DNA of 64,000 nucleotides from assembly GCA_029219585.1 (NCBI GenBank), contig JAQXTR010000062.1:1-64000 (forward strand). The letters run 5' to 3'. Origin of the DNA: Clostridiales bacterium. GTDB taxonomy: Bacteria > Bacillota > Clostridia > UBA1381. This document shows, piece after piece, positions 4,308 to 40,819 of this stretch (position 1 is its first letter; each line of letters begins with the position of its first letter). The notes below the pieces were generated by a model. That model saw nothing but the letters and a program-made list of their open reading frames with translations, did no database searches and was not told the DNA's origin. The position numbers and the translations under genes are program-made.

Positions 4308-5981
4308 TCACGCCTCCTTCTTTGTATTAAGAGCATTTTCGTTATATGCATCACCTGTAGGCTCGAACGGATTTACGTTGACTACAAGGAAATAACTCTT
4401 GTCGTCGCTTAGCATATCCGCAATTGCACCGTCTATCTCGGAATTTTCCGAAATCTCACCTGTCCTGATACCATAAGCATCTGCAAGCTTGCAGAAGTCA
4501 GGTCCGCCTGTTATGTCAACCATCTGGAAGTTTGAGTTATAGTTAAGATACTGAAGCTCATGCACCATACCAAGGCGGTCATTTTTAAATAATACCATTT
4601 TAACAGGTATACCGTACTGCTTCATTGTACCAAGCTCAACCATATCCATCTGGAAGCTTCCGTCACCCATTATAGCAACTACCGGTAAATCACGCTGTGC
4701 GCAGGATGCACCGATTGCCGCCGGCAAGCCGTAGCCCATTGTACCAAATCCGCCTGATGTCAGGAAATGGTCGGGTTTCTTTATTGTGTAGTGATTTGCA
4801 CTCCAAATCTGGTTCTGTCCTACTTCAGTTGTTAGGTAAATCTCTGAATTTGTAATCGCCGAAAGTCTTTCAAGGAAATATTTCGGGTTTACAAAGCCTG
4901 TGTCCTCACTCACCTGTACACGGCTTGTTTCGTTGCGGAGCTCATGTGCCTCATCTATCCATTCTTGTGATGTTTTATAGTCGCCCACAACATTAATAAG
5001 CTGCTCCGTTACGTCTTTAATATCACCTACAACAGGGATTTTCGGTAAAGTATTCTTTCCTATTTCCGCCGGATCTATATCCACGTGAACAAGCTTTTTC
5101 ACCTTTTCAAGGCCTTTTATGTTAGCAATACTTCTGTCACCTAATCTTGTACCCAACGCAAGGATAAAATCCGAACGGTTAAGAAGTACATTCGCACATT
5201 TCTTACCGTGCGAGCCTATCATACCGTAATAGCTGTCGCTGTCTGTAGGCACAACGCCTAAGCCCATCATAGTAGACACGACAGGAACATTTGTAAGCTC
5301 CACAAATTTTCTTACCTCGTCTACTGCCTCTGAACAGCATACACCGCCGCCCGCAAGAATTATAGGCTTTTTTGCCTTTCTTAATGCGTCTGCGACCTTC
5401 TTTATCTGAGACTCGTTTGCTTTGCCTACAAGCTTATAGCCACGAAGATTTATTTCACGTTCTCCAACCTCATCATCGTAGTCATCTGCAAGCACGTCTA
5501 ACGGAAAATCTATAAGTACGGGGCCAGGTCTGCCTGTAGTTGCGATATGGAACGCCTCATCAACAATTCTCGGAATATCTGACACGTCCTTTACAAGATA
5601 GCTATGCTTTGTAAATGGCAATGTCGCACCGATTATGTCTACCTCCTGGAAAGCGTCCTTACCGATAAGCTCACGCTTAACCTGACCTGTAATTGCTACC
5701 ATAGGAATGGAGTCCATATATGCTGTAGCTATGGCAGTTATAAGATTGGTTGCTCCGGGGCCCGATGTTGCCGTACACACACCTGCTACATGGTTTACTC
5801 TGCCGTAGCCTGATGCCATGTGTGCCGCACCCTGCTCGTTTCGTGTAAGAACGTAGTCAATAGACGAACGGGATATACTGTCAACGAAGGGAGCATTTGA
5901 TGCACCCGGATAGCCGAACACTACCTTGACACCGTTTGCCTCTAAGGCTTTAACCGCTATATCTGCACCATTCATACCCAA
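4308..5981 (-). CDS. ilvB: Acetolactate synthase large (catalytic) subunit
   Basis: A 557-residue ThDP enzyme that condenses two pyruvates, or pyruvate with 2-oxobutyrate. Visible are VFGYPGASNAPFVD, the catalytic glutamate in TRNEQGAAHMASGYGR (about residue 49), the central domain AGGGV, and the ThDP/Mg motif MGDGSFQMDMVELGT in the C-terminal third. The likely start is TTG at 5981, 8 nt after GGAGG. An ATG two codons later (5975) would be 14 nt away, though it gives a more family-like MNGADI start. The gene leads the ilvBNC unit behind a good promoter at 6020-6048. No T-box or leader peptide is visible. Confidence 0.95.
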   Translation of the reverse strand: MGMNGADIAVKALEANGVKVVFGYPGASNAPFVDSISRSSIDYVLTRNEQGAAHMASGYGRVNHVAGVCTATSGPGATNLITAIATAYMDSIPMVAITGQVKRELIGKDAFQEVDIIGATLPFTKHSYLVKDVSDIPRIVDEAFHIATTGRPGPVLIDFPLDVLADDYDDEVGEREINLRGYKLVGKANESQIKKVADALRKAKKPIILAGGGVCCSEAVDEVRKFVELTNVPVVSTMMGLGVVPTDSDSYYGMIGSHGKKCANVLLNRSDFILALGTRLGDRSIANIKGLEKVKKLVHVDIDPAEIGKNTLPKIPVVGDIKDVTEQLINVVGDYKTSQEWIDEAHELRNETSRVQVSEDTGFVNPKYFLERLSAITNSEIYLTTEVGQNQIWSANHYTIKKPDHFLTSGGFGTMGYGLPAAIGASCAQRDLPVVAIMGDGSFQMDMVELGTMKQYGIPVKMVLFKNDRLGMVHELQYLNYNSNFQMVDITGGPDFCKLADAYGIRTGEISENSEIDGAIADMLSDDKSYFLVVNVNPFEPTGDAYNENALNTKKEA

Positions 5982-38921: not shown

Positions 38922-38950
38922 TTGACAAATTTCCGAATTTATTGTAAAAT
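38922..38950 (+). promoter_or_regulatory. Promoter of the leuA leader
   Basis: TTGACA (38922-38927), 17-bp spacer, TAAAAT (38945-38950). The start site is near 38957, about 30 nt before the leader peptide and 190 nt before leuA. Confidence 0.8.
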
Positions 38951-38986
38951 ACCCTTAACAGATTACAAATGATTGGAGTGCTATAT

Positions 38987-39034
38987 ATGTATTACATCGT
39001 AACAGCACAATTTAATCTACTGCTAGCAGACTGA
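38987..39034 (+). CDS. 15-residue leucine leader peptide
   Basis: ATG at 38987 with GGAG 8 nt upstream and TGA at 39032-39034. The peptide reads MYYIVTAQFNLLLAD. The three adjacent leucine codons are CTA CTG CTA, and the preceding Ile and Val are also branched-chain residues. With a terminator downstream and leuA after it, this is the layout of a ribosome-mediated attenuator: scarcity of charged tRNA-Leu stalls the ribosome at the Leu codons. Confidence 0.75.
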   Translation: MYYIVTAQFNLLLAD

Positions 39035-39043
39035 ATCGGCAAC

Positions 39044-39107
39044 GTGGTCGTCAGTTTTTTCTGCGTGTATGCGGGATTTTGTCGAACCACAGGGTTCGAT
39101 TTTTTTG
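39044..39107 (+). terminator. leuA attenuator: antiterminator strand and terminator
   Basis: The terminator is TCGAACC (39082-39088) / GGTTCGA (39093-39099) followed by a run of T to 39106. An upstream strand GTGGTCG (39044-39050) can instead pair with CGAACCAC (39083-39090), with one bulge, and mask the 5' half of the terminator. The two pairings exclude each other, as required for attenuation. Confidence 0.7.
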
Positions 39108-39148
39108 TATCATGACATATCTGCGTGTTTATATAAAGGAGGGTATTT

Positions 39149-40819
39149 ATGAACTATCAAAAATATACCAGAATGTATCACCCCATTCCTCTGAAGAACA
39201 GAGAATGGTGTGACAAGGAAATTACACATGCCCCGATCTGGTGCAGCGTTGATCTCCGTGACGGAAACCAGGCATTGTATTCCCCAATGACAATTGATGA
39301 AAAAATAGAGTTTTTTGAGTTCCTTGTTAAGCTCGGCTTTAAGGAGATCGAGGTAGGCTTCCCTGCCGCCTCATCAACGGAGTTTGACTTTATACGCCGT
39401 CTTATAGAAGAGAACAGAATCCCTGACGATGTTTCGATTCAGGTTCTTACTCAGGCAAGAGAGCATATCATAACAAAGACAATTGAATGTCTTAAAGGCG
39501 CCAAAAACGCTATTGTTCATCTTTATAACTCAACCTCAACGCTTCAGCGTGACGTTGTTTTCAGCAAGAATAGGGATGAAATCAAGCAGCTTGCCATCGA
39601 CGGTGCAAAGCTCGTAAAGGAGCTTGTTGATGCCGAGCTTGACGGCAATATCCGCTATGAATATTCACCCGAAAGCTTTACCTGCACCGAGCCTGAATAT
39701 GCGGTTGATGTTGTAAATGCGGTAAATGAGATATTCTGCCCGACGCCTGACAGAAAGGTTATTATAAACCTTCCTTCGACAATTGAGGTTGCAACGGCAA
39801 ATGTCTATGCCGATCAGATTGAGTATATGTGCAAAAACCTCAATAACCGCGAAAGTCTTATAATCAGCGTTCATGCGCATAACGACCGCGGAACAGGCGT
39901 CGCATCCTCAGAGCTTGCTCTGCTTGCGGGAGCGGACAGGGTTGAGGGTACGCTGTTCGGCAACGGTGAGAGAACAGGAAACACCGACCTTGTAACTGTC
40001 GCTCTTAATATGTTCTCCCAGGGCATAGATCCGGAGCTTGACCTGAGCAATATTGACGAGGCGATAGCTATGTTTGAAAAGTGTAATAAAATGCCTGTTG
40101 ATCCGCGCCATCCATATGCAGGAGATATGGCATATGTTGCATTCTCCGGCAGTCACCAGGACGCTATCAAAAAGAGCTTTGACCGCTTCGAGGAGCATCC
40201 CGACAACAAATGGGCCAACCCGTATCTTACAATAGACCCCGCCGATATAGGCAGAAAATATGAGCCTATTATGATCAATTCACAGAGCGGCAAGGGCGGC
40301 GTGAGCTACGTTATGGAAAACAAGTACGGATATACACTTCCCAAGAAAATGCTTACGGAGTTCTCCTCCATTATCAATGACCTTTCGGATGAAAAGCATA
40401 CCGTTCTTGAAAACGAGGAAATCCATACAGCCTTTAAGGATACATACATGAACCTTAAGACGCCTATCAAAACATATTCATACCGTTCGCAGAATGACGA
40501 TGCTGTGACAACAGTACATGCGACCATTGAATATAACGGCAGGGTTTCATCAATAACCGGAACAGGAAACGGACCGCTTGACGCACTTTGCGCCGGTCTC
40601 AGACGTTTCCTTAACATTGATTTTGAGATATGCGAATATACAGAGCATGCCCTTGAACGCTCGTCATCATCAAAGGCAGCAACCTATATTGCCATAAGGG
40701 ATAACGATGACGATGCCAAGGTATTCTGGGGTGTTGGGGTCCATGAGAACATCAACACTGCTTCAATTTATGCTCTTGTCAGCGCGGCTAACAGAATGCT
40801 TGATGCACTGCAAAAATAA
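39149..40819 (+). CDS. leuA: 2-isopropylmalate synthase
   Basis: A 556-residue protein of the longer LeuA class. The N-terminal TIM barrel has SVDLRDGNQALYSPM (metal-binding Asp) and HAHNDRGTGVASSELALLAGADRVEGTLFGNGERTGNTDL (HxH ligands). The C-terminal regulatory domain contains VHATIEYNGRVSSITGTGNGPLDAL. It commits 2-oxoisovalerate to leucine. GGAGGG lies before the ATG. leuCDB do not follow; a terminator does. Confidence 0.95.
   Translation: MNYQKYTRMYHPIPLKNREWCDKEITHAPIWCSVDLRDGNQALYSPMTIDEKIEFFEFLVKLGFKEIEVGFPAASSTEFDFIRRLIEENRIPDDVSIQVLTQAREHIITKTIECLKGAKNAIVHLYNSTSTLQRDVVFSKNRDEIKQLAIDGAKLVKELVDAELDGNIRYEYSPESFTCTEPEYAVDVVNAVNEIFCPTPDRKVIINLPSTIEVATANVYADQIEYMCKNLNNRESLIISVHAHNDRGTGVASSELALLAGADRVEGTLFGNGERTGNTDLVTVALNMFSQGIDPELDLSNIDEAIAMFEKCNKMPVDPRHPYAGDMAYVAFSGSHQDAIKKSFDRFEEHPDNKWANPYLTIDPADIGRKYEPIMINSQSGKGGVSYVMENKYGYTLPKKMLTEFSSIINDLSDEKHTVLENEEIHTAFKDTYMNLKTPIKTYSYRSQNDDAVTTVHATIEYNGRVSSITGTGNGPLDALCAGLRRFLNIDFEICEYTEHALERSSSSKAATYIAIRDNDDDAKVFWGVGVHENINTASIYALVSAANRMLDALQK

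Follow-up and report, generated by a model that had tools for sequence, protein, structure and literature searches.

In the bacterial group to which Clostridiales bacterium GCA_029219585.1 (GTDB lineage Bacteria; Bacillota; Clostridia; UBA1381) belongs, leuA, the gene for 2-isopropylmalate synthase, is usually under T-box control. T-box control of branched-chain amino acid synthesis is recorded in Bacillales and Clostridia, and not in Staphylococci, Listeria or several Streptococci (PMC2494555). The leuA gene of this organism is preceded by a leader of another appearance. This leader occupies positions 38922 to 39148 of the stretch of DNA analyzed here, the first 64,000 nucleotides of contig JAQXTR010000062.1 (hereafter, the window). 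We conclude, with a probability of about 0.93, that it is a ribosome-mediated transcription attenuator sensing charged tRNA-Leu.

A preliminary description of this DNA had proposed that a promoter is followed by a 15-residue peptide with consecutive CTA-CTG-CTA leucine codons, a T-rich terminator and then leuA, and that two mutually exclusive pairings (39044-39050 with 39083-39090, or 39082-39088 with 39093-39099) underlie ribosome-mediated attenuation. Each of these parts was found in the sequence, and both sets of pairing coordinates were correct (Table 1); the first of the two pairings contains one bulged A. Beyond that description, two further elements were identified: a protector hairpin (helix 1:2), with an energy of -9.4 kcal/mol when folded alone, and a small hairpin within the loop of the antiterminator (helix 2:3). 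With these two hairpins, the textbook attenuator of the Trp/Leu type is complete. All attenuator parts that can be tested in sequence are present: a promoter, a translatable open reading frame (ORF), a run of leucine codons, a terminator (helix 3:4), an antiterminator exclusive with it and a protector hairpin over the end of the ORF. The string TCTGCGTGT was also seen twice in the leader, at 39059-39067 in the small hairpin and at 39120-39128 between the terminator and the leuA ribosome binding site.

Table 1. Features of the leuA leader and its gene, in window coordinates.
Feature	Position	Strand	Details
Sigma-70-type promoter	38922-38950	+	-35 TTGACA 38922-38927, spacer 17 nt, -10 TAAAAT 38945-38950; 11/12 positions in consensus scan
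Leader peptide ribosome binding site	38975-38978	+	GGAG; from sequence
Leader peptide ORF, MYYIVTAQFNLLLAD-stop	38987-39034	+	15 codons, ATG to TGA; relatives retain the start, the frame, the Leu run and the stop
Regulatory codons CTA CTG CTA	39017-39025	+	Leu11-Leu13; rare CTA enriched in leaders
Protector hairpin 1:2	39029-39056	+	39029-39034 with 39051-39056; 39037-39040 with 39047-39050; spans leader stop codon
Strand 2, antiterminator 5' half	39044-39054	+	39044-39050 plus 39052-39054
Small hairpin within antiterminator loop	39059-39076	+	-6.1 kcal/mol; brings strands 2 and 3 together
Strand 3, antiterminator 3' half	39079-39090	+	39079-39081, 39083-39084, 39086-39090; overlaps terminator 5' arm
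Intrinsic terminator 3:4 and U tract	39082-39106	+	stem 39082-39088 with 39093-39099; seven T 39100-39106; -10.8 kcal/mol
leuA ribosome binding site, AAGGAGGG	39136-39143	+	from sequence; outside switch helices
leuA, 2-isopropylmalate synthase	39149-40819	+	ATG at 39149; 556 aa, TIGR00970 type; 726.9 bits vs curated cut-off 697.4

Conservation among relatives, to which the preliminary description had looked for support, was examined with LeuA relatives gathered from the window's family (70 genomes) and from genome contigs (43 loci), of which 23 distinct leaders were aligned (alignment A1). A short ORF was present upstream of leuA in the 23 aligned leaders and in several more, with a C terminus that matches or resembles N-[LN]-x-LLL(L)-[S, TD, AD]-stop. 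The N-terminal residues of the peptide vary; the frame, the Leu run and the stop are maintained. The run comprises two to five codons, is once interrupted by Met and usually lies just ahead of the stop, and the changes within it in the aligned leaders are nearly all synonymous. CTA accounted for 53 of 93 leucine codons in the leader runs, compared with 37 of the ~1,540 leucine codons (2.4%) in the genes of the window. The relatives also have a comparable promoter at the equivalent place and a GAGG/GGAG-type site ahead of the leader ATG, and members of the genus carry a hairpin, as judged by eye, at the place of the antiterminator-loop hairpin despite a different sequence.

The competing helices were conserved together with the peptide. 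In A1, helices 1:2 and 3:4 contained standard pairs in 99.7% of cells, compared with a mean of 93.7% after shuffling and at most 48% when partners were slid by 1 to 3 columns, and both-sided changes were found in six of their pairs (39 cells). Helix 1:2 was paired in 98.6 to 100% of cells across the 23 sequences, with pair changes, and 5 of the 8 terminator pairs had changed on both sides among relatives. The antiterminator, which shares strands with both of these helices, was paired in 97.5% of cells, compared with at most 53% in slid controls, and has a both-sided change from U-A to G-C in two sequences (L052 and L054). All three helices remain available in the divergent members L085, L086, L087 and L090, whose sequences are quite different and whose 2:3 duplexes have energies of -13 to -20 kcal/mol. 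Several genera of the family thus share the Leu-run peptide, the three competing helices and their place before leuA, and compensatory changes accompany this conservation. Collectively, the helix anatomy, its conservation and the mutual exclusion of the pairings are established by computation, and the anatomy, conservation and covarying exclusive helices support ribosome-mediated attenuation as first proposed. Separately, the last 280 nt ahead of leuA in L085 contain two to three direct repeats of ~65 nt (TTTTCATTAGCTGCGTTTGCGAAGC...) between the leader and the gene.

From the arrangement of these parts, we infer leader peptide translation, ribosome stalling and leucine-dependent read-through. 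RNA polymerase would start at the promoter, and a ribosome would begin translation of the 15-codon leader. When leucine is plentiful, the ribosome would quickly pass the rare CTA/CTG codons and reach the UGA at 39032; with the ribosome at the stop, or released with helix 1:2 re-formed, strand 2 would be unavailable to strand 3, so that the terminator (39082-39099) would form and transcription would end before leuA. When charged tRNA-Leu is scarce, the ribosome would stall at Leu12 or Leu13, where it would cover strand 1 (39029-39035) and leave strand 2 free. Free strand 2 would pair with strand 3, the terminator would be blocked and leuA would be transcribed.

The effect of ribosome position on the predicted fold was modeled by folding the window RNA with the ribosome-covered nucleotides removed, an equilibrium calculation with an assumed ribosome reach of ~15 to 16 nt that is illustrative only. 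The terminator had a probability of 0.997 without a ribosome and of 0.88 when the mask extended to 39029 (Leu11 in the A site). Masking to 39032, corresponding to a stall at Leu12, lowered this probability to 0.02, and masking to 39035, corresponding to a stall at Leu13, lowered it to 0.13. When the ribosome was placed at the stop codon (mask to 39044), the terminator was again predicted, with a probability of 0.97.

Several results weigh against this mechanism or parts of it. When the mask ended at 39043 instead of 39044, the terminator probability was 0.09 and the antiterminator was favored. Since the stop-codon state hinges on a single nucleotide of the footprint, ribosome release and re-formation of helix 1:2 probably matter and may be needed for termination in rich medium. 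Before strand 4 is transcribed, the equilibrium favored helix 2:3 over 1:2 also when no ribosome was present. The outcome of masking was neither uniform nor equally clean in all relatives, and it was not used as proof. Finally, several members of the genus have no leader, so the switch is dispensable.

Of the other explanations, control of translation initiation by a LEU element of the type published for actinobacterial leuA, in which the Leu codons pair with the leuA Shine-Dalgarno sequence in a pseudoknot (PMC1262725), is very unlikely here. Possible Leu-codon/Shine-Dalgarno pairings exist in some relatives, as this explanation would have it; however, the pairing is weak in the window (-4.3 kcal/mol) and no register is common to the relatives, and it was rejected as not conserved. 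The leader instead contains a conserved antiterminator and a strong intrinsic terminator, and the leuA Shine-Dalgarno sequence lies outside the switch.

A variant T-box, in which uncharged tRNA-Leu would bind the leader directly and stabilize the antiterminator while the Leu-rich ORF is incidental, is hardly credible. Related leuA genes are under T-box control, and the GUGGU in strand 2 resembles the T-box bulge. However, the pairings that GUGGUC makes with strands 1 and 3 fully account for it, and it varies together with these strands (L051, L052 and L054); the leader of ~150 to 190 nt is without stem I or specifier, and the Leu-run frame is conserved with rare codons. Further, a search of the window for the T-box family (RF00230) gave no match, either at the gathering score or with E values allowed up to 10. 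T-boxes above the Rfam gathering score were found at distant LeuA relatives of the same type (L065, L068, L070 and L073, from Clostridium, Oscillospiraceae and others) and, within the window's own family, at the second leuA copies of two genomes (L091 in G002 and L093 in G004). In these two genomes, the main leuA shows no leader, and the T-box lies upstream of a second leuA paralogue that is ~54% identical. The window's genome contains only two T-box matches, both below the gathering score, before thrS and an ileS-like gene (genes named by sequence inspection).

Chance was assessed within the window and in shuffled sequence. In the 64 kb, both strands included, only the leader ORF, which was counted from two nested ATGs, combined a length of 8 to 30 codons and three consecutive Leu codons with an intrinsic terminator no more than 130 nt away; 30 Markov-shuffled windows yielded one such case in all. 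The region 39028-39106 folds with a z score of -3.2 and the terminator with a z score of -4.0; in each case, 1 of 200 dinucleotide shuffles folded at least as well. That the terminator is unregulated or controlled by a protein and the short ORF meaningless, an explanation left room by the fact that we infer translation of the peptide, is scarcely to be believed given this control, the conserved frame with mostly synonymous Leu changes and the covariation of mutually exclusive helices.

The distribution of the attenuator was determined with a covariance model, R1, built from alignment A1. R1 detected the element in 29 genomes of the family at E ≤ 6e-13, in five genera, with one copy per genome adjoining leuA. 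In a genome of a sixth genus (G009), there was a match at the right place with an E value of 0.005. R1 missed three divergent members from two additional genera (L086, L087 and L090), which were recognized by eye only. No strong R1 match was found elsewhere in these family genomes. In one genome (G027), the strong copy lies at the end of a contig, and leuA, on a different contig, is preceded by a partial copy. A second element at another gene (G027:C78) was considered and rejected, since the match ends its contig and the leuA contig starts inside the leader, and the two are probably one locus split between contigs. A match near a spo0A-like gene in G064 (E value of 0.004) was taken as chance, and G085 gave a match with an E value of 0.007. 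Outside the family, no strong R1 match was found in genomes of the order or in 391 genomes of the class under strict filters with few candidates scored per genome, a design by which divergent versions elsewhere could be missed.

In the leaderless members L032, L037, L039, L040 and L063, a promoter lies close before the leuA ribosome binding site, and neither a leader ORF nor a terminator intervenes. On well-supported branches of the LeuA tree, the leader label must have changed at least three times, a count that alone cannot separate losses from gains; the pattern is in keeping with repeated loss of the leader. In L072 and L036, an extra ~130 to 280 nt separates the attenuator from leuA, with inverted repeats in L072 (~1200-1500), and this extra sequence perhaps represents small mobile insertions. 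It is likely that the leader represents an unnamed RNA family of one Clostridia family, a classical leader-peptide attenuator where other Clostridia leuA genes have a T-box, and that clean deletions of the DNA between promoter and gene have removed it on several occasions.

Other amino acid biosynthesis genes of the same genome were also inspected. No leader peptides were seen before its three ilvB genes or before trpE. One of the three, an ilvB-type acetolactate synthase-like gene in the window (4371-5975, minus strand), has a promoter and no visible upstream leader attenuator. Upstream of trpE (L129, G000:C19:7978-9345:-), ~8 to 10 (U/G/A)AG-type triplets spaced by 2 to 3 nt precede a strong intrinsic terminator. 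The genome also has a gene for an mtrB-type TRAP protein (L130, G000:C27:27800-27997:-; PF02081, E value of 5.9e-35). In this Clostridia family, trp is probably under TRAP-controlled attenuation.

These findings add a well-supported leader-peptide attenuator to the Clostridia, for which surveys list T-boxes as the control of branched-chain synthesis. Since leader-peptide, T-box and leaderless forms all occur in one leuA lineage, the exchange of attenuation mechanisms can be traced there. The covariance model can serve to annotate the leaders of leuA in these gut bacteria, most of which are uncultured. An earlier description of this leader in Clostridia was not found in a literature search that reached few subscription papers. 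The window leader likewise had no Rfam match, including to Leu_leader and leu-phe_leader; when E values up to 10 were allowed, two chance matches to unrelated families were all that appeared.

In Escherichia coli, the leucine genes are under leader-peptide attenuation. Compared with the leuL attenuator of E. coli and Salmonella, the window leader is shorter and does not match the Rfam Leu_leader model, has three Leu codons placed two codons ahead of the stop and controls a single leuA of the TIGR00970 type, the next gene lying on the other strand. The leuA of Actinobacteria likewise belongs to the longer type, and the LEU element shares with the window leader a Leu-run ORF ahead of leuA; the window leader differs from it in having an intrinsic terminator and no conserved Leu-codon/Shine-Dalgarno pairing. 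In Staphylococcus aureus, a leucine-rich leader-peptide attenuator of the ilv-leu operon is supported genetically, and attenuators of Lactococcus lactis and Streptococcus are cited as predictions (PMC5794164). The S. aureus and window systems are alike in that a leader-peptide attenuator takes the place of a T-box for the branched-chain synthesis of a Firmicute; however, the S. aureus peptide has 26 aa and its attenuator precedes ilvD of a long operon (PMC5794164), whereas the window peptide has 15 aa and one Leu run and precedes leuA. Compared with the leuA T-box (RF00230), the regulated gene family is identical, and a Leu-specific T-box would likewise antiterminate at low charged tRNA-Leu; in the T-box, however, the tRNA is read directly by the RNA, and the window element has no match to that family. 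The leuA leader is new as an RNA family and for its taxonomic place, and is ordinary, indeed textbook, as a mechanism.
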